Part shown: positions 8,816 to 25,794 of the stretch, one piece after another
How the letters are laid out: each line of letters begins with the position of its first letter
Numbering within the stretch: the stretch's first letter is position 1
DNA from: Aquabacterium sp. OR-4
Lineage (GTDB): Bacteria; Pseudomonadota; Gammaproteobacteria; Burkholderiales; Burkholderiaceae_C
Assembly: GCF_025290835.2 (NCBI RefSeq)
Contig: NZ_JAOCQD020000003.1
Span: forward strand, 682,001 to 746,000
Direction: 5' to 3'
DNA length: 64,000 bases
Program-made: the position numbers and the translations under genes
The notes under the pieces: generated by a model
The model's input: only the letters and a program-made list of their open reading frames with translations
Database searches by the model: none
What the model was told of the DNA's origin: nothing

Positions 8816-8936
8816 GTTGAACGCTCGCTTGAGGCCGGTGAACCCGGCGCTGGTGGTGGCTCAGGTGGTGGCGCGGGTGGTGGCGCGGGTGGTAGTGCAG
8901 ATGGCGGCGCCGGCGCCGCCACGGCGGGGGTGGGCG

Positions 8937-9851
8937 TCAGATCGGGTCCCAGCCGAAGACATCGGCCGAGCGATCCATGGCCACGAAGCTGCCCTTCAGC
9001 GCGGGCATCGCATGCTCGGCAATGTGCTGCGGGGTCCAGCCGTCGCCGCGGTGCACGCTGCGGATCGGGCGCGGCTGGCTCATCAGAAAGATCTCGTTGT
9101 TGCGCACCGCAAAGACCTGGGCGTTGACCTCTTTGGCCGCGTCACTCAGCAGGTAGACGGCCAGCGGCGCGATCTTGGCCGGCGTCATCTGCTGCATGCG
9201 GGCCACGCGGGCCTGCTGCTCGGGCGTGTCGGTCGGGATCGAGCCGATCATGCGGCTCCAGGCAAAGGGCGCGATGCAGTTCGAGCGCACATTGAACTTG
9301 GCCATGTCCAGCGCCACGCTCTTGCTGAAGGCGGTGAGGCCCAGCTTGGCGGCGCTGTAGTTGGCCTGGCCGAAGTTGCCGATCAGGCCCGAGGTGCTGG
9401 TCATGTGCACGAAGGCGCCGCTGCCCTGCTCCTTGAAATGGTTGGCCGCGGCGCGGCTGACGAACCAGCTGCCGTACAGGTGCACCTTGATCACGGCGTC
9501 CCACTCGGGATCGCTCATCTTGTGAAAGATGCGGTCGCGCAGGATGCCGGCGTTGTTGACCACCCCGTCGATGCGGCCGAAGTGATCGAGCGCGCACTGG
9601 ATGATGCGGTTGGCCGCCACCGCCTCGGCCACGCTGTCGGTGCTGGCCACGGCCTGGCCGCCGGCGGCCTTGATCTCGTCGACCACCTGCTGCGCCGGGC
9701 CGGTGCTGGCGCCCTCGCCGGTGGTGCTGGTGCCCAGGTCGTTGACCACCACCCGGGCGCCTTCGGCCGCCATTGCCAGCGCGATGTCGCGGCCAATGCC
9801 GCCGCCCGCGCCCGTGACCACCACCACCTTGCCATCCATCATGCCTGCCAT
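8937..9851 (-). CDS. SDR family oxidoreductase, MFE-like
   Basis: A 304-residue SDR. ATG codons at 9851, 9842 and 9839 are all possible; 9851 (MAGMMDGK) is listed. It shows the cofactor motif TGAGGGIGRD, the NDLG segment typical of hydroxyacyl-CoA dehydrogenases of multifunctional-enzyme type, NNAG, and the active site S/YSAAK. A C-terminal extension of ~50 residues (SQPRPIRSVHRGDGW...) goes beyond the basic fold and is seen in this subgroup. The likely role is 3-hydroxyacyl-CoA or related oxidoreduction. It is divergent from gnd. Confidence 0.85.
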   Translation of the reverse strand: MAGMMDGKVVVVTGAGGGIGRDIALAMAAEGARVVVNDLGTSTTGEGASTGPAQQVVDEIKAAGGQAVASTDSVAEAVAANRIIQCALDHFGRIDGVVNNAGILRDRIFHKMSDPEWDAVIKVHLYGSWFVSRAAANHFKEQGSGAFVHMTSTSGLIGNFGQANYSAAKLGLTAFSKSVALDMAKFNVRSNCIAPFAWSRMIGSIPTDTPEQQARVARMQQMTPAKIAPLAVYLLSDAAKEVNAQVFAVRNNEIFLMSQPRPIRSVHRGDGWTPQHIAEHAMPALKGSFVAMDRSADVFGWDPI

Positions 9852-10173
9852 GTCTCGTCTCGCTTGCGTGTGTGTCGATGCCGGCCGCGCGCAGCGCCGC
9901 CCGGTCCAGCCGCCAGCGTGCCCGCCGGGGCGCCGTCGCGCCATTCGGCTTTGCCAAGGGGCCACTTCGCCGCGGCCAAAGCGCTTGGCCGCTTGCGACA
10001 GGCCGGCGCGGCGCGGTGAGCGGTCTGGCCAATCGCGCGGCGTGGCGGGCGCCCTGGCGGCGCTGCAGCACAGGCCGGCGCCGCGCCGCATGTGGACAAC
10101 CACGACACGCCGGCGCCCGGCCACGGCCGACAATCGGCCGCCTGATCCACTGCTGCCCCAAGCGCGTTTGCCC
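9852..10173. other. Divergent intergenic region, SDR / gnd
   Basis: A 322-bp GC-rich spacer between divergent genes. It should carry both promoters, but no convincing sigma-70 elements, operator palindrome or small ORF was found. Confidence 0.4.
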
Positions 10174-15612: not shown

Positions 15613-16545
15613 TCATCCACCCCACGCATCTCTCACCGCACGAAGGTGACGCCAATCGGTCCCACAGCAACCGCCCACGATGTTCAGGTTCGGCAAGGCG
15701 CTCTTGAGGCCCCGATACCGTTGCGCGAGATCGCTCGGATCGCCTATGTCCAGTTCGGCCGATGCGTCGAGTTCAGCGTGACTCTTCGTCGAAGCGTTGG
15801 CGCGAAGGCCGCGAATGCGTTCAATCCAGGGCTCGCCCCTCTTCAAGACGCCTGCAAAGTGACTTGGATGAGCACAATTGATTGCGAAGTAAGCCGGCGG
15901 CGCCAGCGCGTCCACTCGTTCGATGGCATCGCCCAGCGCCTCACCGCTTGGAAGCCGGCCATCCGTCTCGACGGTAAAAGAGATCGCGACCGGCAGTCCC
16001 ACGCGCTGCGCCGCCAGCGAAATGCCGAGGGCTTCGGCCGAGGTTGTCATCGTCACCGCAGAGAGCATGTCCACCCCGCCCGATGCAAGTGCTTCAGCCT
16101 GCAGGCAGTGATAGCTGGTGGCGGCGGCCACGCTGTCCGGTGCATTGGCAACGTAGCCGTCTCCCCGCGGGCCGATGACTCCGCTGACAACCATGGGCCC
16201 ACTGAGCCGCGGCGCCCAGCGTGAACGCATGGAACACATCATCTGGGCTGCGGCGTGGTTGACTGCCCTCAGGTGTTCACTATCGACACCTAGAAGCGCG
16301 GCCCAGTCGGGATTGGCGCGCCACGTCGGCGTTTCAAGCACGAAGCCAGCCCCGCTCATCTCGGCGCAGAGTTCGAGGTATGGCACGTAGTAACTCTTCA
16401 AACGCTCGCGGCCGAGTTCATCTGCGAGCAGCGTAAACGCCGCAAAGTGTGGAAGCTCGATCTTGTCGAGGAAGACGAGCGAAGTCTCAAGGCCACCGTC
16501 GCTCAGGAAGACCTGTCCGGTCAGTTGGGGAAGCATGCTCGCCAC
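15613..16545 (-). CDS. Homocysteine S-methyltransferase family protein
   Basis: A 310-residue enzyme of the homocysteine methyltransferase (MmuM-like) fold. A strong AGGAGG eight bases before the GTG at 16545 fixes the start. Motifs are LSDGGLETSLVF at the N-terminus, FVLETPTWRANPDW, an internal cysteine in FAINCAHPSHF, and the zinc-binding NIVGGCCGTDWRHL near the C-terminus. The family transfers a methyl group to homocysteine (donor S-methylmethionine or SAM). Substrate specificity is unproven. The gene is followed by the cupin gene. Confidence 0.9.
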   Translation of the reverse strand: MASMLPQLTGQVFLSDGGLETSLVFLDKIELPHFAAFTLLADELGRERLKSYYVPYLELCAEMSGAGFVLETPTWRANPDWAALLGVDSEHLRAVNHAAAQMMCSMRSRWAPRLSGPMVVSGVIGPRGDGYVANAPDSVAAATSYHCLQAEALASGGVDMLSAVTMTTSAEALGISLAAQRVGLPVAISFTVETDGRLPSGEALGDAIERVDALAPPAYFAINCAHPSHFAGVLKRGEPWIERIRGLRANASTKSHAELDASAELDIGDPSDLAQRYRGLKSALPNLNIVGGCCGTDWRHLRAVRDAWGG

Positions 16546-16717
16546 GATCTGTACCTCCTTGGCCAAAAGCCGGTTTTACCGACGGTACGAGCACATGTCG
16601 CGGTGGGCAATCCCGCAGTCGGCGATGTCTGCGCGAGCATGCTGAGCCGGCGAAGGGGCGCTTTCGAGCATTGGGTATCGGGCCGAGAGGTGCGGTGTCC
16701 ATTGATCTCAGACCCTA

Positions 16718-17895
16718 GTGTAGTGCGCGTGAATTTATAGAACTTATTTGCGCCGGCATACTCAGACGTTCCAGGAGGCTGGAACAGTGCGGGTTGCCAA
16801 GACGATTGAACTGGACGCAGACACCGAGCGCGAGCTCCGTGTGCTGGCCAAGCGCCGAACGGTGGAGGCCCGGTTGCAGCAGCGTGCGCTGGTCGTGCTG
16901 CTGGCCGCCGAGGGCCGGCAGAACAAGGACATCGCTGTCGATGCAGGACTGGATCGGCGCCAGGTCGCCATGTGGCGCGAGCGCTTCCTCAGCGGTGGCA
17001 TCGACGCGCTGCGCAAGGACGCCCCACGCAGCGGCCGTCCGGCCACGATCACCGCTGAGATGGAGTCGCGCATCGTGCAGGCCACGCTGCACGACAAGCC
17101 GGTCGACGCCACGCACTGGAGCACCCGCACCTTGGCCGCGCACCTGGGTGTGGGAGCCACCACCGTGCGTCGGGTTTGGCAGAGCAACGGCCTGAAGCCG
17201 CACCTGAGCCGCACGTTCAAGCTCTCGCGTGATCCACGGTTCGAGGACAAGTTGCTCGACGTCGTCGGCCTGTACATGAACCCGCCCGAGCACGCCCTGG
17301 TGCTCAGCTGCGACGAGAAGAGCCAGATCCAGGCGCTCAACCGTACACAGCCGGGTCTGCCGATGAAGCGCGGGCGTGCCGGCACCGTGACCCACGACTA
17401 CAAGCGCCACGGCACGACCACGCTGTTTGCCGCGCTCAACACGGTGGACGGCAAGGTGATCTCGATGTGCCAGCCGCGCCACCGGCATACCGAGTGGCTG
17501 AAGTTCTTGCGGCTGATCGACCGCCGCACGCCCAAGCACCTGGGCCTTCACCTGATCGTGGACAACTACGCCACCCACAGCCACCCCGAGGTGCAGAAAT
17601 GGCTGGCGCGTCATCCGCGGTTCGTCATGCACTTCACGCCGACCAGCGCTTCGTGGCTGAACATGGTCGAACGCTTCTTCCGCGACATCACCGACAAGCG
17701 CATCCGGCGTGACAGCTTCGCCAGCGTTGCCGAACTGGAGCTGGCCATCGACCTGTACGTGGCCCATCACAACATCGATCCCAAGCCGTTCATCTGGACG
17801 GCCCGCGCGACCGACATCCTGGCCAAGGTGACCCGGGCCAAGGCCGCCCTGGTCACCGCACCGGAATAAGTACAGAACAGAGCGGCGCACTGCAC
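16718..17895 (+). mobile_element. IS630-family insertion sequence
   Basis: A complete element flanked by TA at 16716-16717 and 17896-17897, the expected IS630/Tc1 target duplication. The ends form imperfect inverted repeats beginning GTGTAGTGCGC and, on the other strand, GTGCAGTGCGC. One transposase ORF fills it. It lies just distal to the integron cassette array. Confidence 0.9.
16787..17869 (+). CDS. IS630 family transposase
   Basis: A 360-residue DDE transposase. A GTG start at 16787 is chosen because AGGAGG lies eight bases upstream. The N-terminal helix-turn-helix region (NKDIAVDAGLDRRQVAMWRE) is followed by a winged-helix part. The DDE catalytic core shows SCDEKSQIQAL, LIVDNYATHSHPEV and NMVERFFRDIT. 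Gene and ends are intact, so it may be active. Confidence 0.93.
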   Translation: MRVAKTIELDADTERELRVLAKRRTVEARLQQRALVVLLAAEGRQNKDIAVDAGLDRRQVAMWRERFLSGGIDALRKDAPRSGRPATITAEMESRIVQATLHDKPVDATHWSTRTLAAHLGVGATTVRRVWQSNGLKPHLSRTFKLSRDPRFEDKLLDVVGLYMNPPEHALVLSCDEKSQIQALNRTQPGLPMKRGRAGTVTHDYKRHGTTTLFAALNTVDGKVISMCQPRHRHTEWLKFLRLIDRRTPKHLGLHLIVDNYATHSHPEVQKWLARHPRFVMHFTPTSASWLNMVERFFRDITDKRIRRDSFASVAELELAIDLYVAHHNIDPKPFIWTARATDILAKVTRAKAALVTAPE

Positions 17896-17897
17896 TA

Positions 17898-18089
17898 GAG
17901 CGAAGGCAGCCCCGCGACGATTACCTGTCTTGAGGTATCCAACCCTCGCATATCAGCCTGAACAACCGTCGCACATCCACTCATCGGGTGGCAGCAACAG
18001 GCTCCGTCGCGTTCCCCGTCCGGCAACGGGTTCCACCATCATCTGTTTGCGCAGAGGGATTCATGCGCGCTCTTGACAGACAGAAGCCA
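17898..18089. other. Spacer between IS630 and cassette array
   Basis: About 190 bp with no convincing ORF, repeat or site. It separates the insertion sequence from the distal attC remnant. Confidence 0.4.
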
Positions 18090-18161
18090 TATCAACGTTT
18101 GACATGTGGGGTGACCGCAGGGCGCAGCCTTTTGGAAATCCCCTCGATGGAAGGGTTAGGC
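18090..18161 (-). other. Degenerate distal attC (cassette 8)
   Basis: One end is a canonical GTTAGGC at 18155-18161. The other end retains only CAACGTTTGA and lacks a consensus core. It is probably the decayed last attC of the array, belonging to the monooxygenase cassette. Confidence 0.55.
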
Positions 18162-18253
18162 GTCTTTGCGGCCCTGAGCTGAAACAAGTTTTTGTTCGGC
18201 ATCGGTGAGTACGGACGGTAGGCACAAAGGCAGATATCGGGGGGTTCTGCCGG

Positions 18254-18562
18254 TCACGGTTTCTTCACCCAGACAGGAGTGAGTTGCACTACTTGGGGTG
18301 GCCCTTCAAGCAATGACTCTACTTCACGAAGATAGGAGAGATAGCTCTGTGTGGAGAGGAACGCCTGAGCTTCTTCGGGAGAGGTGTATTGCTGGAAGGC
18401 GCATATTGACTCAGGGTCGGCGTTGTCTTGGCAATAGAAGTAGGCCATGTGGCCCTGGTTTTCCTGAATGGCAGGTGCCATGTGCTTCAACCATATGGAT
18501 TGAACTTGGCTTCGTTTGCCAAGCAGAGTCTTGTGCTTGATAAATAGCGCAGTACTGGACAT
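18254..18562 (-). CDS. Antibiotic biosynthesis monooxygenase (ABM) domain protein, cassette 8
   Basis: A 102-residue protein with start ATG at 18562 preceded by GGAG. The pattern KHKTLLGKRSQVQSIWLKHM ... GHMAYFYCQDNADPESICAF fits the ferredoxin-like ABM family (quinol or heme-type monooxygenases without prosthetic group). The C-terminal half has the usual SYLSYLREVESLL helix. It occupies the distal cassette and is oriented with the array. Substrate is unknown. Confidence 0.75.
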   Translation of the reverse strand: MSSTALFIKHKTLLGKRSQVQSIWLKHMAPAIQENQGHMAYFYCQDNADPESICAFQQYTSPEEAQAFLSTQSYLSYLREVESLLEGPPQVVQLTPVWVKKP

Positions 18563-18611
18563 TGCTTCTCCTTCAATATGAGGATGTGAGATCGGCGGCC
18601 GAAGTTGAGCC

Positions 18612-19183
18612 GCCTAACGAATGGAAGGGCCTTCCCCGCCCCGAGTGATCCGCGAAGCGAGGCGCCCGAGAGAGGCGTCAAGATGGGAAGTGCGAAATCT
18701 CATCAACTCACTTGGAAGGGGAAGGCCCATGACCATGGCGAGGAAGAAATAGCCCGCAGCCTGCGCGGCAACTGGCGCAGTGCGACACCGAGATCGAGGC
18801 GCAGTTGGGTCGGCTGCACATCAACGCCGACGAGCCCGCCAAGGGCAAGAAGCGCGGCAAGGCGCGCAACGCGCCGAAGTTCGACCTGCGCACGCGGCTG
18901 TTCCAGATGTGCGGGGTGGACCTCACGCGCATCGACGGCATCGACGTGACCACCGCGCTGGCGGTGATCTCCGAGGTTGGCACCGACATGGGCAAATTCG
19001 CCAGCGACAACCTGCCGAGCGGTTCGTATCTGGGGCCTCGGCCAACGGTGCCGAAACAAGCCCGCCTGTAGATGTGCAGTCTGTTCCTTGTGGGTGGCGT
19101 CAACGCGCATCGCTCCTGGCATTGGGATCAAACGGGGAAATCAAATCAATCCGTAGCGCGTCGGCTCGAACGAGGGGTTAGGC
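18612..19183 (-). other. attC of the VapBC cassette, split by IS110 remnant
   Basis: A core GCCTAAC at 18612-18618 and a matching GTTAGGC end at 19177-19183, with the typical CTCGAACGAGG arm, lie 560 bp apart. IS110-family transposase sequence lies between them. IS1111-attC elements of the IS110 family are known to insert specifically into attC sites, so this looks like one interrupted attC. The left arm after GCCTAAC does not match the other sites, placing the insertion next to the core. Confidence 0.6.
18751..19071 (+). pseudogene. IS110/IS1111-family transposase fragment
   Basis: About 90 residues resemble the central to C-terminal part of IS110-family transposases: CDTEIEAQLGRL, then FDLRTRLFQMCGVDLTRIDGI and TALAVISEVGTDMGKFAS. 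The N-terminal DEDD catalytic domain and the C-terminal serine motif are absent, and the frame runs into unrelated sequence before TAG at 19069. It is a dead remnant. An 11-bp inverted repeat (GGGCCTTCCCC near 18627, partner near 18719) lies to its left. Confidence 0.75.
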
Positions 19184-19237
19184 GCCGCCGTGTGTACAGA
19201 CGCGTGTATGATGTGTATCTCCTATATGGAGGTTGCC

Positions 19238-19432
19238 GTGCGAACGAACATTGTGATTGACGACAAGCTCATGGAAGCCACGCTTAAGGCTACTGGCCTG
19301 AAGACAAAGCGCGAAGCGGTTGAACAGGGTCTGCGGACTCTGCTGCGCTTGAAGCAGCAGACGGAGCTGCGGAAGCTGCGAGGCAAGTACGAGTGGGAGG
19401 GAGATCTTGACGCGATGAGGCGCGACAAGTGA
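19238..19432 (+). CDS. vapB: VapB-family antitoxin, cassette 7
   Basis: A 64-residue antitoxin. A GTG start at 19238 is favoured by GGAGG about five bases upstream. The ribbon-helix-helix N-terminus (RTNIVIDDKLMEATLKATG) and a charged C-terminal tail (YEWEGDLDAMRRDK) match VapB type II antitoxins, which bind the promoter and neutralise VapC. Its stop overlaps the VapC start by 4 bp. The gene is inverted relative to the array, so it needs its own promoter; TGTACA and TGTAT motifs near 19193-19212 are candidates. Confidence 0.9.
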   Translation: MRTNIVIDDKLMEATLKATGLKTKREAVEQGLRTLLRLKQQTELRKLRGKYEWEGDLDAMRRDK

Positions 19433-19836
19433 TTTTGGTCGACTCTAGTGTCTGGATCGACTTCTTTCGAAACACGCCGACCCCGCAGGCTGAATGGCTA
19501 GACGCCCACCTTGGCGATGAAGGTCTTGTAGTTGGCGATCTCATCCTTGCCGAAGTGCTCCGAGGGTTCAAGGACGACCGTGGTTTCAACGAGGCTAGAC
19601 GGCTGCTGGCGCGCCTGGAACAAGTAGCGCTTTGCGGAGAAGACCTTGCCGTGGAAGCTGCGCGCAACTTCAGGCGCCTTCGATCTCGTGGCGTCACGGT
19701 GCGCGGAACTATCGACGTTGTCATCGCAACCCGATGCATTTCGGATGGCCTTCGGCTCCTGCACAGCGACCGAGACTTTGATCCGTTTGTAGAGCATCTC
19801 GGCCTCCGCATAGTGGATTGCGGCGCCAACGTTTGA
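19429..19836 (+). CDS. vapC: VapC-family PIN ribonuclease toxin, cassette 7
   Basis: A 135-residue PIN-domain toxin with GTG start at 19429, coupled to vapB. The acidic residues expected for metal-dependent RNase activity are visible: D5 (VDSSVWID), E42 (LAEVLRG), D96 (GTIDVVIA) and D114/D116 (HSDRDFD). VapC toxins cleave tRNA or rRNA when the antitoxin is degraded. The stop codon lies within the next attC. In integron arrays such pairs are known to stabilise cassettes against loss. Confidence 0.93.
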   Translation: MILVDSSVWIDFFRNTPTPQAEWLDAHLGDEGLVVGDLILAEVLRGFKDDRGFNEARRLLARLEQVALCGEDLAVEAARNFRRLRSRGVTVRGTIDVVIATRCISDGLRLLHSDRDFDPFVEHLGLRIVDCGANV

Positions 19837-19937
19837 GCTAACCAGACCGCCACAGCGTGACGGCGGCTGGGCCAGAATGAAATGGAGGCCCGGACGGCGG
19901 CATGCTGTGGTGGGTCTGGTTGAGCGAAGGGTTAGGC
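19824..19937 (-). other. attC site (cassette 6)
   Basis: About 114 bp from CGCCAAC to GTTAGGC, with arms GCTAACCAGACC / GGTCTGGTTGAGC pairing around a long central stem. The GCT-AAC versus GCTCAAC asymmetry supplies the extrahelical base. It serves the minus-strand gene on its right. Confidence 0.88.
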
Positions 19938-19956
19938 CTCAGTCCGCAATCGATGA

Positions 19957-20466
19957 TTAGCCTTTGATAAGTGCTCCGACGATTGAGCCAATGAGCCCGC
20001 CTACGGCGCCAGCCAGCGCCACCCACCAGCGTCGGTCCTTCTGATGCTCCAGTGCACGTGAGTGGAGATTGACCGCTGTGTCTACCAGTGTCTTGATGTC
20101 AGATGCTGCAAGTGGGACACGCGAAATGCGCAATTTCTGATCCCCGGTTAGCGCTTCGTATTCTTCGTTCGACAAGACGCGCATGGCATCAACATCGAAT
20201 CGCTTGGGGAACTGGCGGCGCCAGACAAGCGATGCCTTCTCGCGTGCGGAGTCAAGACGAAAGAACTCGGGGTGTTGCTCGAAGAGGCGCTTCCACTTGT
20301 CTCCCTGAGTTTTGTCGGCGGCGATTCGGTCCGCCCAATCCTCGTGGGTTAACTTGTAGAACTTGTAGGTCGCCATCGCCTGAATTGCGGCGATCACGTC
20401 GCCCAGCCGACCAGGCTCGGCGAGGTACGGCGACGGTGGCGCGGAGTTTGACCAAGGCAGTTGCAC
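19957..20466 (-). CDS. Cassette 6 hypothetical membrane-anchored protein
   Basis: A 169-residue protein. GTG at 20466 is chosen for its upstream AAGGAG. The soluble N-terminal part (ATYKFYKLTHEDWADRI, WKRLFEQHPEFFRL) has no known domain. A short C-terminal transmembrane segment with glycine zippers (WVALAGAVGGLIGSIVGALI, ~145-165) ends the protein, so it is probably tail-anchored. Function is unknown. It follows array orientation. Confidence 0.65.
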   Translation of the reverse strand: MQLPWSNSAPPSPYLAEPGRLGDVIAAIQAMATYKFYKLTHEDWADRIAADKTQGDKWKRLFEQHPEFFRLDSAREKASLVWRRQFPKRFDVDAMRVLSNEEYEALTGDQKLRISRVPLAASDIKTLVDTAVNLHSRALEHQKDRRWWVALAGAVGGLIGSIVGALIKG

Positions 20467-20481
20467 GACCGTTCTCCTTGA

Positions 20482-20607
20482 GGCCAACGTTTGAGCTGAG
20501 GCGCGAGCGCCGGTGTGGTGCTTGGCCCGCTGTACGGATGATGAACAGCACCGGGAAGCGGGCCAAGTGCCACGCCGGTGTGAGTCGCCTCGAGCGAAGG
20601 GTTAGGC
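20482..20607 (-). other. attC site (cassette 5)
   Basis: About 126 bp from GGCCAAC to GTTAGGC. The arms GCTGAGGCG and CGCCTCGAGC pair with one unpaired base, and the central stem is long. The terminal spacer sequences match the other attC sites although the stem sequence differs. Confidence 0.85.
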
Positions 20608-20617
20608 CCCGTGATCG

Positions 20618-21184
20618 ATGAAGGAACATGCCGTAAAGTACGGCTCTGCTGAAGACCAAGCTAGCTTAGGGAAACACCAAATGTTAAGCCGAATCAAGAT
20701 GCTATTCGCCAGGAAGAGGGACTTGTCGGATGAGTTCTTGAATGCTGCGATTTCAAATTGGTTCGGTCCCGACGCTGAGCTGACTGAGGATGTCAAGTCA
20801 CGCCTACAAGCAACAATGGACGCAGCGGCGCTCATCGCATATATCGCAGAGGTGCAATTGGCCTTGCTAGGGCAGGGCACAGCAAACAAGTGGTGGAGAC
20901 ATCGAGCCGTTGTATTTGGCTATGTCAGTGGCGTTTCAGATGGTATGGCTAAGTCTAGAGGCGAGTCCAGTAATTGGCCTGGGCTCCTTACTTGTATGGC
21001 GGCGATCAACTTTCTTCTGAAAGGCCGCTGGGATGAGCAAGATGTATTTGACACTTGTAGTCGTTTAACTGAGAGCGGAGATCCGCAATTTCAGAAGGGT
21101 GCAATGGCTGGATTTGATGACAGTCAGCGGCTGGCTATGAATGGTCCTCGGACTGGACTTATTGGCGCCTTGCAAGGCGAATGA
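20618..21184 (+). CDS. Cassette 5 hypothetical protein (inverted)
   Basis: A 188-residue protein with start ATG at 20618; an internal ATG at 20681 (MLSRIKML) is an alternative. It is mainly helical and soluble, with a tryptophan-containing core (NKWWRHRAVVFGYVSGVSDG). No domain is recognised. It is on the strand opposite to the array orientation, so it would need its own promoter, like the VapBC cassette. Confidence 0.6.
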   Translation: MKEHAVKYGSAEDQASLGKHQMLSRIKMLFARKRDLSDEFLNAAISNWFGPDAELTEDVKSRLQATMDAAALIAYIAEVQLALLGQGTANKWWRHRAVVFGYVSGVSDGMAKSRGESSNWPGLLTCMAAINFLLKGRWDEQDVFDTCSRLTESGDPQFQKGAMAGFDDSQRLAMNGPRTGLIGALQGE

Positions 21185-21235
21185 TCTGCTGCTTGCCGGA
21201 GGTGAGTCGTTTGCATGCTTGGCTGGCAAGTCGGG

Positions 21236-21348
21236 GCCTAACGTTTGAGCTAACCGGACCGTTGCGGTATGCGGCTAAAGGCCCAGAATGAAATTGAGGG
21301 CCTTTGGCCGCATGCCGCAATAGGTCCGGTTGAGCGAATGGTTAGGCG
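21236..21348 (-). other. attC site (cassette 4)
   Basis: About 113 bp from GCCTAAC to GTTAGGC. It is nearly identical to the sites at 22965 and 23618, including GCTAACCGGACCGTTGCGG and the matching other arm. Confidence 0.92.
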
Positions 21349-21354
21349 TCATGC

Positions 21355-21984
21355 TTATGCTGCGGCCAGACTATCGAATTTGCGGATGAAAGCTGCTTTC
21401 AAACTGGCTTCTTCCGTTAGTTCTTGTTTAAAATCAGATATGTATGTCAGCAAAGCTGCTTGAAAGTTATTCCGAAACACAATCTTGTCCTCAACACTAG
21501 CGACAAGTCCGTCAGGTCCATCTGCCCAAATTCGCCACCCGGACTTTGTTCTTGCCTCGTGCACCAACGCGCAGCGAACATTTGCGTAGAAGTCTCTCGC
21601 TGAACTGAGCGTAAATGTCGACAGGAATGGCGGGTGTTTGCTCAAGAATCGTGAAAATACTTCACCACTTGCGGAATATTCATATTCTCCAAGTTTTTGT
21701 CCCTTCTTGGGATGGCAATAATTGGTTCCTTCCCTTGTTGATTCTAGGAACTCTATCAGTGAGCATTGAATAACAAGAATGGAAAATCCTTCGCCTTGGA
21801 GATGTAGGTGTTCTTGCAATACAGCTATTGGATCCAGATATCGAAGTTTGAGTCTTGTAAGAAAGTAGTCCGAATATGCTTCATACCAGGCTGAGGAATC
21901 ATCGTCTATCAGCCTAGGCCTGATGGCTTGCCAGTCCGTGGCCGTTTTCCACCCAGCGATGTAGTCTGCGGTATCGAATTTCAT
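21355..21984 (-). CDS. Cassette 4 protein with HEPN-type RX4H motif
   Basis: A 209-residue helical protein with start ATG at 21984. Near the C-terminal third, R137-CALV-H142 (NVRCALVHEART) gives the R-x4-H signature of HEPN ribonuclease and HEPN-like domains, preceded by a helix (LSSARDFYANV) as in that fold. The family is common in toxin-antitoxin and anti-phage systems, but many HEPN-like proteins are not nucleases. No partner MNT antitoxin is in the cassette. The gene follows array orientation and its stop lies 6 bp from attC. Confidence 0.62.
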   Translation of the reverse strand: MKFDTADYIAGWKTATDWQAIRPRLIDDDSSAWYEAYSDYFLTRLKLRYLDPIAVLQEHLHLQGEGFSILVIQCSLIEFLESTREGTNYCHPKKGQKLGEYEYSASGEVFSRFLSKHPPFLSTFTLSSARDFYANVRCALVHEARTKSGWRIWADGPDGLVASVEDKIVFRNNFQAALLTYISDFKQELTEEASLKAAFIRKFDSLAAA

Positions 21985-21987
21985 GAC

Positions 21988-22116
21988 GCTTAACGTTTGA
22001 GCTAAGCGGGCGACGACGGCAGGACGCCAGGCCCGGGCTGGCGAAAATGTACCGCGTACCGCCAGACCGGGCCTGGTGGCCTGCCGTTGGCGCTCCGCTT
22101 GAGCGAGGGGTTAGGC
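21988..22116 (-). other. attC site (cassette 3)
   Basis: About 129 bp from GCTTAAC to GTTAGGC. The arms GCTAAGCGG and CCGCTTGAGC show the same single-base asymmetry, but the central stem differs from the 112-bp class. Confidence 0.88.
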
Positions 22117-22134
22117 GTCTCCGCGTTCACGGCC

Positions 22135-22608
22135 TTACCGTCGCCTTGACGAAGTGAACTGCGCCTTGATGATGCGACCGGTCAGAACGACTACGAGAAC
22201 CAGTCCAAAGATCACTACGGCTGTGCGAAGGAGGTTTTCGGCGATCTGGGTCAACAATAGAGTCCAGGTCACAAAGCCCCCCAGGAGAAGAGTGATCAGT
22301 GGAACTACAAGAGTGACGGGAACAGCCAGAACAATCGCAAGCAAGACGTTTAACTTTAACCAAGCCCGCAGACCGCCGTTTGGGGAGATGGCTTGCTCCA
22401 GCGACAATAGATTGAACCTGACCACTTCTGCGACGCGCTCGAAACTTGGCAGATTGTCTACGTCCGAGTCCAGTTCTGGCGGTGGAGGCGGCACCGGCCG
22501 CCATGCCGTCCGCAGCGCGGTGACGATGCGCACGTACAGCGCTGGCCCACGCAGAGCAGTTTCCATCGGTGAGCGCGAACTCGGCGCGTCGTTATCCCTG
22601 TTACTCAT
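22135..22608 (-). CDS. Cassette 3 membrane protein
   Basis: A 157-residue protein with start ATG at 22608. A proline-rich region (PVPPPPPE) is followed by two predicted transmembrane helices (LLAIVLAVPVTLVVPLITLL and VVIFGLVLVVVLTG), and it ends in a basic tail, SSRRR. No family is recognised. It overlaps the upstream lipoprotein gene by 8 bp, so the two form a translationally coupled pair within one cassette. Confidence 0.65.
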   Translation of the reverse strand: MSNRDNDAPSSRSPMETALRGPALYVRIVTALRTAWRPVPPPPPELDSDVDNLPSFERVAEVVRFNLLSLEQAISPNGGLRAWLKLNVLLAIVLAVPVTLVVPLITLLLGGFVTWTLLLTQIAENLLRTAVVIFGLVLVVVLTGRIIKAQFTSSRRR

Positions 22609-22930
22609 CGCGGCGTGCTCGCTCAGCCTTCTTGCGTGCTGACGATCCTAACGAGATTCCGAAGAGTACCGCAGCAACAGAACCGATGATTCCGAGTAAT
22701 GCGGCTATTCGCCAGAACTCAGAGGATTGCGCTTCCTTCTCGCGCTTTTGCTTCTCTTCGGCAAGCATGCGCTGAGTCTCCTCCTTTGCCGCTCTCTCGT
22801 TGTTTGCACGCTCGGTTTGTCTGACTTCCTCGGCGGTGGGCCCAGGAGCGGGCGCCTCTTCTTTCTTTCCGCACCCACCGAGCGAAATGAGGATGCAAAA
22901 GGCGGCAGCGTAGCGTTTGTATTGATTCAT
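22601..22930 (-). CDS. Cassette 3 lipoprotein with coiled coil
   Basis: A 109-residue protein with start ATG at 22930. A signal peptide ends in the lipobox SLGGC (near residue 20). A charged helix rich in E, K, R and Q (~32-66) follows, likely a coiled coil. A C-terminal hydrophobic segment (IAALLGIIGSVAAVLFGISL) ends in a basic tail. It would be anchored by lipid and by a transmembrane helix, possibly in different membranes. Function is unknown; it probably works with the coupled membrane protein. Confidence 0.65.
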   Translation of the reverse strand: MNQYKRYAAAFCILISLGGCGKKEEAPAPGPTAEEVRQTERANNERAAKEETQRMLAEEKQKREKEAQSSEFWRIAALLGIIGSVAAVLFGISLGSSARKKAERARRDE

Positions 22931-22964
22931 GCGGACAGACTGTAGCGGAGTTCCTTCTTGAGAC

Positions 22965-23076
22965 GCCTAACGTTTGAGCTAACCGGACCGTTGCGGTATG
23001 TGGCTAAAGGCCCAGAATGAAATGGCGGGCCTTTGGCCGCATGCCGCAATGGGTCCGGTTGAGCGAATGGTTAGGC
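22965..23076 (-). other. attC site (cassette 2)
   Basis: About 112 bp from GCCTAAC to GTTAGGC, nearly identical to those at 21236 and 23618. The stop of the nuclease-like gene lies inside it. Confidence 0.92.
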
Positions 23077-23583
23077 CTCGGCTGCACCACTCTTCGTACT
23101 CTCTATTACGGTTGTCAATGTTCCGCTGATTATGCTTGCAGATGCAGAAATGGAATCGGGGGCCATAGAAAGCATGATTTGATTCAGAAATTTCAGAATG
23201 TACTCTGTAGTCGTTGAGTTCTCATTCAACCGAACTGAGATGATGTTTTCGGCCGTGGCGATGAATTTTGCACCTTCCTGTAATCCCATTGGGCTCACAA
23301 TAATCCCACCAACGGCGCCAGTATCTTGGATACGGTATGCGATAGCGGCTGTATCTTCTTGAGTTATTCGGCTACTTGTGTACCGCCGAATTTCGACAAT
23401 TACAAAATTTTCCCCGTCTGGTTTGACTCCTTTCGCGTCAATCTCCCATTTTGTTCCTGATTTCAACCCAGCGACATGTTGTTTTCCTTCTACGTGTTCA
23501 AGCCCTAGTCTCGTGCTGATCTTATGAAGAAGGTGCGTGGCTACCTCTTCGTATGTTTTCCAGGGTTTGTCGTTTGTCTTCAT
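23071..23583 (-). CDS. Cassette 2 Mrr-like PD-(D/E)xK-fold protein
   Basis: A 170-residue protein with start ATG at 23583. The order D49 (WEIDAKGVKPDG), then FVIVEIRRYTS with E64-x-R66, then a GGIIVSPMGLQEGAKFIA helix-strand matches restriction-endonuclease Mrr-type domains. The usual lysine of ExK is arginine here, so catalysis is uncertain. It could be a small DNA-cleaving or DNA-binding defence protein, or an inactive relative. No methyltransferase is nearby. Confidence 0.62.
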   Translation of the reverse strand: MKTNDKPWKTYEEVATHLLHKISTRLGLEHVEGKQHVAGLKSGTKWEIDAKGVKPDGENFVIVEIRRYTSSRITQEDTAAIAYRIQDTGAVGGIIVSPMGLQEGAKFIATAENIISVRLNENSTTTEYILKFLNQIMLSMAPDSISASASIISGTLTTVIESTKSGAAEA

Positions 23584-23617
23584 GTGCTGGCGAGTGAGTA
23601 GGGATTTTGACTCCGAG

Positions 23618-23729
23618 GCCTAACGTTTGAGCTAACCGGACCGTTGCGGTATGTGGCTAAAGGCCCAGAATGAAATGGCGGGCCTTTAGCTGCATGCCGC
23701 AATGGGTCCGGTTGAGCGAATGGTTAGGC
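23618..23729 (-). other. attC site (cassette 1)
   Basis: About 112 bp from GCCTAAC to GTTAGGC, almost identical to the neighbouring site at 22965. It terminates the first (proximal) cassette. Confidence 0.92.
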
Positions 23730-23747
23730 CTCATGCGCTGGTTAGCA

Positions 23748-24293
23748 TTATTGATTCGCCGCCCGACGCCGCAGAGGTTGTACAAACCGTGTCGGGATGA
23801 GTTCAAGAATTGCAGCTAGGCAGCGACTCGCTGTGTTCAAATTCTGTACTTGATGATTGAGCATCTCTAGTGTTTTGAGGCCATGAAAGAGATTGTTGCG
23901 AAGGCGATATATAATAATCATGAGGGCTAGGAGTTTTTCCTCATCTGTCGTAAGTCGACCAGACAGTACACCTTCGACATGATCGCGCCTGTCATTTGGC
24001 CGAAAGTACAGGCTTTCGAAGTAGTCGTTGAAACCGTCAGGTGATTGATACCTAAACTGCCAGAATGATAAGCAATCTTGAAGAGACTGCTTTGCCGATT
24101 GCGATGCTCTGGCAGATTGATAATGTTGTATGGCTCTCTGGAATGCGGCAATCGAGGCGCGATTTTCGCAAAGTGTGCTCTCAAAGAAGTTCCACATCGT
24201 CGTAAATGATGCCACTGATTTGTTTGCTTCATCAGTGAGGTTGGTTCCGCCAGTTGTGTTGGCGGCGATCCATTCCGTGGCGTTGAATGTCAT
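23748..24293 (-). CDS. Cassette 1 HEPN-domain protein
   Basis: A 181-residue helical protein with start ATG at 24293. The sequence IIIYRLRNNLFHGLKTLEML contains R132-NNLF-H137, an R-x4-H motif in the RxRNxxxHG form common in apea-like HEPN proteins. An upstream charged helix (TTDEEKLLALMI) completes the usual layout. These proteins are often RNases in toxin-antitoxin or phage-defence settings, but activity here is inference. It is the proximal cassette, best placed for transcription from an integron promoter. Confidence 0.68.
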   Translation of the reverse strand: MTFNATEWIAANTTGGTNLTDEANKSVASFTTMWNFFESTLCENRASIAAFQRAIQHYQSARASQSAKQSLQDCLSFWQFRYQSPDGFNDYFESLYFRPNDRRDHVEGVLSGRLTTDEEKLLALMIIIYRLRNNLFHGLKTLEMLNHQVQNLNTASRCLAAILELIPTRFVQPLRRRAANQ

Positions 24294-24323
24294 ATACGAT
24301 GGCGTTTCGGTGTTGGGTATGAG

Positions 24324-24360
24324 GCCTAACCTGCTTTATACGTCAACCCATCCGCCCGCA
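24324..24360 (-). other. Lone core site, candidate attI or array edge
   Basis: On the minus strand, GTTAGGC (24330-24324) is preceded by TTGACGTATAAAGCAG and has no attC-like arms. This is what the cassette-proximal half of an attI site looks like. No intI gene follows on the right, so it may be the relic of a lost platform. Confidence 0.45.
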
Positions 24361-24521: not shown

Positions 24522-25601
24522 TCATTGGCGCTTCTCCATGGCCCCACCCGGCACTGCGCCGTAGCCGTCATTCACGCGGGCAAAGCTCAATTCGCGCTCG
24601 GCGTCCATGAAGGCCCGCAATCCGTCCATTTGAAGCGGTCGCAATTCGGGCAGATGGTGCAGCGCAATTTCGGCGGCCAGGGCCCAGTCCACATCGGTGG
24701 CTTGGGGGTTGATCCACAGCGGGGCGTCTGCGGCTTCGGCGGGGCGGGCGTTCAGCAGGGTCTGGGCGGCGCTGCTGGCCTGGGTGTTGGCCGCGCTGTG
24801 GCCTGCACCGGGGCCGGGCATGGGCGCCAGCAGCACGTGCTGGGGCCAGCGGCCGGGGTGGGGGGCGTCGGCGCTGGGGGGCGCCCACAGCAACAGCAGA
24901 TGTTGGGCGTCGTGGCTTTCCACCACCGGGCCAGCCAGTGGGATGCCGCCGGCAGGGCCGTGGCCATGGGCCGATACAAACTCGGTGCTGGCCTGCAGCA
25001 CCAGGCGGTGCGCGCCTATCCAGGCGCCGGGCTGCCAGCGCGGCAGCACGCGGGGGTCGGTTGCGTGGCGCAGGTGCAGGGTTTGCGGGTCGGGCTGCCA
25101 GTCATCGGCCGGGTGGGTGCCGGCCTGGGCGGCGGTGGCGGCTGCGGCGCAGGCCTGGCGGCCGATGTCGTGCAGCAGTGCGTCTTGTGCCGCTGCGTTG
25201 GCGGGCGCGCCGGTGGGCGCGTGGGGCAGGTCGAGCACGGGCACGTCGGTCACGTCGTCGGCCTGCCAGCGTTCGCCGTTGCGCAGCAGGCCGCCCTTGG
25301 CGGCTTTGGGGCTGACGGTGGCCGCAGCGGGCTCGGGGTGCAGGATGCTGCTCAGGCCCGACAGGTCGGTGGGGTCGCTGTCGGCGGAGGGGGCGCCACG
25401 GTGGCCGCTGTGGCCGCGCGCCGTGCCGCCTGGGTGCAGGCGGCGCAAGAAGTCGTCCAGCGCGTGGGTGGGGTCGTCGTCGTCGTCGGCCTGGGGTCCG
25501 GGTGCCGGGCGGCCGGGGCTGTGGCCGGAGGCTGTGGGGTGGGCATCGTGGCGGTGGGGGGCGTTCCGCCGTGCCGCCGGGTCGTCAGGGGGCGTGCTCA
25601 T
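24522..25601 (-). CDS. Hypothetical protein with disordered N-terminus
   Basis: A 359-residue protein with start ATG at 25601. The first ~100 residues are low-complexity (Pro, His, Asp-rich, with a DDDDDPTH run). The C-terminal ~230 residues look folded: HRLVLQASTEFVSAHGHGP, QHLLLLWAPPSADAP, ALAAEIALHHLPELRPLQMD. No family is recognised. Neighbouring genes give no functional link. Confidence 0.6.
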   Translation of the reverse strand: MSTPPDDPAARRNAPHRHDAHPTASGHSPGRPAPGPQADDDDDPTHALDDFLRRLHPGGTARGHSGHRGAPSADSDPTDLSGLSSILHPEPAAATVSPKAAKGGLLRNGERWQADDVTDVPVLDLPHAPTGAPANAAAQDALLHDIGRQACAAAATAAQAGTHPADDWQPDPQTLHLRHATDPRVLPRWQPGAWIGAHRLVLQASTEFVSAHGHGPAGGIPLAGPVVESHDAQHLLLLWAPPSADAPHPGRWPQHVLLAPMPGPGAGHSAANTQASSAAQTLLNARPAEAADAPLWINPQATDVDWALAAEIALHHLPELRPLQMDGLRAFMDAERELSFARVNDGYGAVPGGAMEKRQ

Positions 25602-25794
25602 GGGCCCATTCTGCGCTGGCTGGCTGGCCTTGTGGCCGGCTGTCATGCCCCTGTCACGGGGGATTCAAGTGGCCGGCCCATCATCGGCGCTGCGCGGCCT
25701 GCTGGTGCGGGCTTGGTTGGCCTGGGTAGCCTTGGGAGGCTGGGTGCCGTTGTTGGTGCGGGCCGTTGCGGCCCACGCTGCCCCGGGGTGTTGC

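Follow-up and report, generated by a model that had tools for sequence, protein, structure and literature searches.

In one count of integron elements, clusters of attC sites without a neighbouring integrase (CALINs) numbered 2961 as against 2760 complete integrons, and the excerpted text of that work offers two origins for them, the decay of integrons and the landing of cassettes elsewhere (PMC9024848). In Xanthomonas, about half of the genomes carry CALINs away from the intI locus, and the part of the source available to us states that these are mobilised in trans (PMC12444791). For mobile integrons, action of the integrase at attI-like secondary sites is known, and such sites are said, in the sections at hand, to be frequent in genomes (PMC10127599). 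The subject of this report is an array of this kind in Aquabacterium sp. OR-4, located in a 64,000-nucleotide stretch of contig NZ_JAOCQD020000003.1 (positions 682,001 to 746,000), hereafter the window, in which positions 18090-24330 hold an integron-type array of eight cassettes, which reads on the minus strand. The locus is almost certainly a CALIN. In the account favoured here, which is probable when taken as a whole, a piece of an array resembling that on contig C2, within the same 6.63-Mb assembly of 7 contigs, was joined to an attI-like site, a step that by itself has an even chance, and can likely be served there in trans.

The array comprises six intact attC sites, one site (attC7) split by an insertion sequence (IS)-like remnant, and one decayed site (attC8). 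The sites carry the attC asymmetry on the minus strand, so the array starts at its right end (24330) and ends at the left, at about 18096. The motif GTTAGGC occurs 14 times in the window, with 13 of the 14 copies falling inside 18155-24330, as compared with a mean of 3.05 and a maximum of 8 copies in 100 shuffles of the whole window, and the GC content of the array is 54.4%, as against 69.5% outside. The first-pass annotation of this DNA, which had recognised eight cassettes of low GC between 18090 and 24330, is thus borne out in its coordinates, its cassette count and its composition; only six of the attC are intact, as attC7 is split and attC8 does not fold better than its shuffles. Six of the eight cassettes have their genes in array orientation, the exceptions being the vapBC cassette and the cassette at 20618-21184, which are reversed.

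On the minus strand, each attC consists, in order, of GCCTAAC, a 5-bp spacer, an L'' that carries an additional base, a long stem, L', TCAAAC and GTTAGGC. A covariance model was built from the six intact sites, whose own scores are consequently high by construction: attC1 (23618-23729), 136.1 bits; attC2 (22965-23076), 131.8 bits; attC3 (21988-22116), 96.4 bits; attC4 (21236-21347), 131.7 bits; attC5 (20482-20607), 93.3 bits; and attC6 (19824-19937), 120.6 bits, all on the minus strand, with five of the six hairpins also being read by the model in antisense. One further weak site was returned (18082-18167, minus strand; 21.1 bits, E 0.001), which corresponds to attC8 (18090-18161), and nothing else in the rest of the 64 kb passed E 0.01. 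As plus-strand DNA, the six sites fold 7.3-11.7 standard deviations below their shuffles, and for three sites folded on both strands the plus strand was the more stable each time (plus/minus, -40.6/-36.5, -45.3/-41.2 and -40.4/-32.2 kcal/mol). The plus strand is the bottom strand of the array, the strand to which the bottom-strand rule for attC sites refers. When attC1 and attC4 are folded as minus strands, the R and L boxes are paired and one L'' base is left unpaired. Both sides of the stem had changed in 19 of 41 pairs among the six sites (shuffles 8.4, standard deviation 2.0) and in 27 of 41 pairs among 38 distinct sites from the window, C2 and the relatives G004 and G020 (shuffles 17.0), this larger alignment being fitted to the covariance model and hence leaning towards it; sliding the pairing partners gave far fewer two-sided changes. 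Folds, covariation and model scores of the six sites therefore confirm the GCCTAAC...GTTAGGC cores and long imperfect palindromes described earlier, and the at least six attC sites that the first-pass annotation had asked for were found with our own model. Its refuting case, namely no model match or hairpins devoid of the extrahelical base and paired boxes, does not apply to these six, each a single-strand hairpin with paired R and L boxes and an extrahelical L'' base; attC8 does not show these features (fold z -0.05 against shuffles). Intact palindromic relatives of attC8 are present in genomes G032 and G015.

No integrase is encoded beside the array: neither TIGR02249 nor a tblastn search with the C2 integrase (IntI) gave a match in the window at E 0.001, which agrees with what had been noted before, and the arrangement of a complete integron, with intI beside attI and array, is absent from the locus. 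The description of the array as integrase-less is right for the locus and wrong for the genome, in which two IntI score above the TIGR02249 cut-off, both on contig C2, one of them standing beside an array of 24 attC of the same family. This IntI is an open frame (C2:1091192-1092145) with what we take to be the tyrosine-recombinase catalytic residues and, presumably, a LexA-type box upstream; downstream of it lie attI (core at C2:1092769) and the 24 plus-strand attC matches, reaching to C2:1117767. Its best named relatives are from Burkholderiales, e.g. metagenome-assembled genomes of Aquabacterium, Rubrivivax and Piscinibacter (69-81%). Over at least 110 bp, five of the window's six intact attC share 92-98% identity with attC on C2, and it is likely that the window sites can be served in trans by the C2 IntI. 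The earlier term chromosomal integron is accordingly kept only in that the array is of integron type, a CALIN with a distal boundary common to the C2 array being the better description.

The 5' end of the array is marked by an attI-like sequence (24331-24354, minus strand) directly before the first core, with the crossover between G 24330 and T 24329. The 17 bp preceding the core match the C2 attI at 12 of 17 positions, the best value among the 1085 GTT sites of the window (next best, 10). With a profile of 16 attI sites (17 collected, one duplicate dropped), the junction scored 11.84 bits, which is the highest among 2598 GTT sites (next, 7.13) and lies within the range of true attI sites left out one at a time (8.9-27.7 bits). 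It has to be noted that 13 of the profile loci were picked by eye from 22 examined (of 80 fetched) by their likeness to a 15-mer ending in CAC, and the C that is invariant in the profile is therefore partly selected. No integrase or platform sequence adjoins the junction. Among seven complete integrons, every upstream region has a match in one or more of the others; those of the window, G004, G006 and G020 match none of the seven intI-attI regions.

The opposite end of the array carries a 3' segment (16679-18095, minus strand) with about 240 bp in common with the end of the C2 array, the identity being 97.6% over 208 bp and 100% over the 40 bp beyond a copy of an IS element that interrupts it at about 16717-17897. 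The latter encodes a transposase with DDE_3 and is of what we take to be the IS630 family; copies 99.8-100% identical occur to the left of the present array, in its flank, and within that of C2. C2-like sequence is found on both sides of the interrupting copy, which must for that reason be later than the shared segment. The two arrays thus have a common distal boundary and different last cassettes. Judging from its sequence, the distal part of the shared segment is likely the end of an IS110-family element standing at the end of the C2 array: similar sequence adjoins an annotated IS110 family transposase in one plasmid relative, and, of four plasmid stretches compared, three show DNA similarity over the C2 array-end element, with no IS110 gene listed beside the like sequence in the Roseomonas, Martelella and Mycobacterium records, for which the gene table is incomplete. 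A group II intron had been suspected by eye in the 3' segment, but Rfam at gathering thresholds returned nothing for the window, L043 or L044, and the IS110 end is the likelier reading; five miRNA-family matches from a permissive Rfam search were far under their cut-offs and are taken as chance hairpins. As a separate observation, three near-identical IS630-type copies lie in the C2 array (L043:1-2273 and 8889-10076), with a head-to-tail pair among them and one copy within an attC.

Comparable layouts are found in relatives. In G004, eight attC among the matches listed lie at C15:277484-284516 behind an attI-like start of 12.0 bits, and the sole IntI match of that genome at E 1e-30 lies at a distance of about 190 kb, the 19 kb taken around it containing neither attC nor an attI-like site; the flank of this array had no match in the other 20 genomes of the same genus. 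On G006:C183 and G020:C118, attI-like starts are followed by attC with no intI on the stretches taken, which leave out contig bases 1-3999 in G006 and comprise 14 of 32.9 kb in G020, and in G010 an attI-like site and one attC stand at a contig end. The window and G004 arrays were located through their attC, whereas G006 and G020 came from an attI pattern search of 60 genomes including our own (23 matches, as against 8 for the reversed control), and their attI likeness is thus not independent. Partial or broken intI beside attI-like sites are seen in G021 and G031. The attC counts in relatives rest on at most 59 scored candidates per genome, and the same-genus genomes G003, G008 and G015 have at least 59 matches each, antisense matches included.

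In the model that we favour, IntI would have linked a distal piece of a C2-like array, at G^TT, to a chromosomal site resembling attI, giving the present 5' end, and the left end would stem from a second, separate event; the 3' segment and attC7 would later have been broken by IS elements. Folded into hairpins, the bottom strands of the window attC would be recognised in trans by the C2 IntI, and cassettes could still leave the array; the locus may now act as a satellite store of small genes. Such a joining accounts for the precise position of the junction at G^TT, its likeness to attI and the lack of platform sequence, and the G004 array, with its attC, attI-like start and remote IntI, has the same layout. 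The origin of the 5' end at an attI-like secondary site, taken by itself, is given an even chance. Several observations weigh against this account. Insertion at a single site does not of itself account for the C2-type 3' segment, and the left end calls for another event. At position -1, where all 16 profile attI have C, the junction has G; among 2684 sites, an earlier profile of five attI placed it second, the best score going to a site in L044; and there is a possible short gapped match to the C2 spacer in a different register. An empty site was not found, the two flanks of the array not being found together in relatives, and the relatives of the genes on either side, gene X (24522-25646) and a methyltransferase gene (15613-16566), lie in other neighbourhoods. 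Finally, the best C2 match of attC5 reaches an identity of only 74%, and no cassette gene is common to the window and C2 arrays, so exchange in trans is a conjecture.

The chief rival, which we consider unlikely, is that the locus is a second complete integron that lost intI and the intI-attI spacer by a deletion reaching to about 25 bp from attI, leaving a diverged attI and its cassettes. The score of the junction within the range of left-out true attI sites would be expected of such a remnant, and decay in place is evident in G021 and G031; however, platform sequence is lacking beyond about 25 bp in the window, G004, G006 and G020 alike, and four such close deletions would be a coincidence, an argument tempered by the fact that G006 and G020 came from the attI pattern search. 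Improbable, in our estimate, is a fragment of the C2 array copied by an IS element or by recombination between like attC, with the likeness to attI arising by chance. The near-identical IS630-type copies in the C2 array and the left flank of the present one, and the probable IS110-family end within the shared segment, lend themselves to this explanation, but the right end of the array falls precisely on a G^TT core rather than on an IS, the junction has the best attI score of the 2598 sites, the IS630-type copy inside the shared segment is the younger of the two, and transport of this kind alone would leave the 5' junction to chance. Extending the joining of array pieces to attI-like sites beyond this locus, it may tentatively be proposed that integrons in the genus are commonly split, with an integrase gene in one place seeding satellite arrays in trans at attI-like chromosomal sites (the window, G004, probably G006 and G020). 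If true, such satellites would retain a functional 5' insertion site and could go on taking up cassettes, in contrast to a dead CALIN. An attI-like start is lacking in a phage-type attC cluster on contig C1, where the best score is 2.0 bits, which weighs against a general rule.

That cluster (L046, C1:1694000-1705000) and the surroundings of the second C2 IntI (L007, C2:586000-605999) both contain phage-type cargo genes, with PHROGs assignments to dNMP phosphatase, PAPS reductase, DNA methyltransferase and HNH; the methyltransferase unit is 98.9% identical between the two over 753 columns, and its ends lie within attC-like sites or close to them. In the C2 integron, the interval from intI to attI holds an open frame of 168 aa (L006:12208-12714), and a partly similar region is present in other complete integrons of the group. 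Contig C6 (L047, 3058 bp) is 99.9-100% identical to part of the C2 array, but the segment between two like attC is missing from it, and it terminates in an IS630-type end; it is either a cassette-deletion variant or an assembly branch. In G004, the IntI within C15:81000-100000 (L160) is 85% identical to that of C2.

Several cassette genes appear, from their sequences, to be toxin- or nuclease-like. The gene of cassette 1 (23748-24293, minus strand; 181 aa) is a candidate Apea-like HEPN gene by the naming of homologues, a source having given HEPN/Apea-type names to 2 of the 120 listed, and by an R-x4-H motif invariant in 16 of 16 aligned sequences; the HEPN ribonuclease motif is R-x4-6-H on a helical bundle. 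A Pfam search gave no match for this protein, nor did the other 59 of 60 genomes searched at E 1e-10. Cassette 2 (23071-23583, minus strand; 170 aa) is Mrr_cat-like at 18.4 bits, below the cut-off of 21 that four of four scanned relatives exceed, and its family has E-x-R in 12 of 12 aligned sequences where Mrr-type proteins have E-x-K with the catalytic lysine. Cassette 3 holds two minus-strand genes, one (22601-22930; 109 aa) lipoprotein-like by eye with no family above cut-off and the other (22135-22608; 157 aa) a membrane protein by eye with no family match. The product of cassette 4 (21355-21984, minus strand; 209 aa) belongs to an unnamed family with R-x4-H, in which R137 and H142 are invariant in 16 of 16 aligned sequences, and a fold search gave no match. 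The reversed gene of cassette 5 (20618-21184, plus strand; 188 aa) has no family above cut-off, and that of cassette 6 (19957-20487, minus strand; 176 aa) has no Pfam or NCBIfam match and a single weak PADLOC match (E 0.0022, 51 residues). Cassette 7 (19190-19836, plus strand) carries vapB (19190-19432) and vapC (19429-19836), with VapB_antitoxin at 45.5 bits, PIN at 48.7 bits and the VapC equivalog at 163 bits, and the gene of cassette 8 (18254-18562, minus strand; 102 aa) is ABM-like at 20.6 bits (cut-off, 23.1). PADLOC run on ten proteins gave three weak matches in two of them, none convincing, and sequence searches against solved structures returned nothing useful. The earlier statement that most of the cargo lacks an assigned function thus stands for much of it, while several genes can now be placed in HEPN-like, Mrr-like and VapBC families. 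A cargo of this kind would be in line with integrons having lately come to be seen as repositories of anti-phage genes (PMC12409362).

The interrupted attC7 (18612-19183, minus strand; R'' at 19183, R' at 18618) has the IS110-family-like remnant, at about 18619-19106, between R'' and R', its own transposase match (Transposase_20, E 0.082) being under the cut-off. Elements of the IS110/IS1111 family that insert in attC form the IS1111-attC group, of which the remnant is at most a candidate member. DNA related to the remnant is found in G002, G008 and G009 and adjoins an annotated IS110 family transposase on an Aquabacterium plasmid. With insertions at secondary or attG sites, reportedly the subject of Loot 2024, the array would share the joining of cassettes to non-integron DNA at a GTT triplet. 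With sedentary chromosomal integrons, i.e. the C2 array and those of the Vibrio type, it shares a single attC family, small cassettes and a cargo of mostly unknown function, but it has no adjoining intI and eight cassettes, as against 24 attC matches on C2. The closest likeness is to CALINs, in which several attC and their cassettes occur without a neighbouring intI (PMC9024848, PMC12444791), and the difference is an attI-like first junction together with the distal boundary of a home array, neither of which is stressed in the accessible parts of these sources. The array is a known kind of element, and its two ends hint at how stranded arrays arise; a genome that holds an open integrase gene together with an array that has an attI-like start and shares its 3' end with the home array makes the question of CALIN origin testable.

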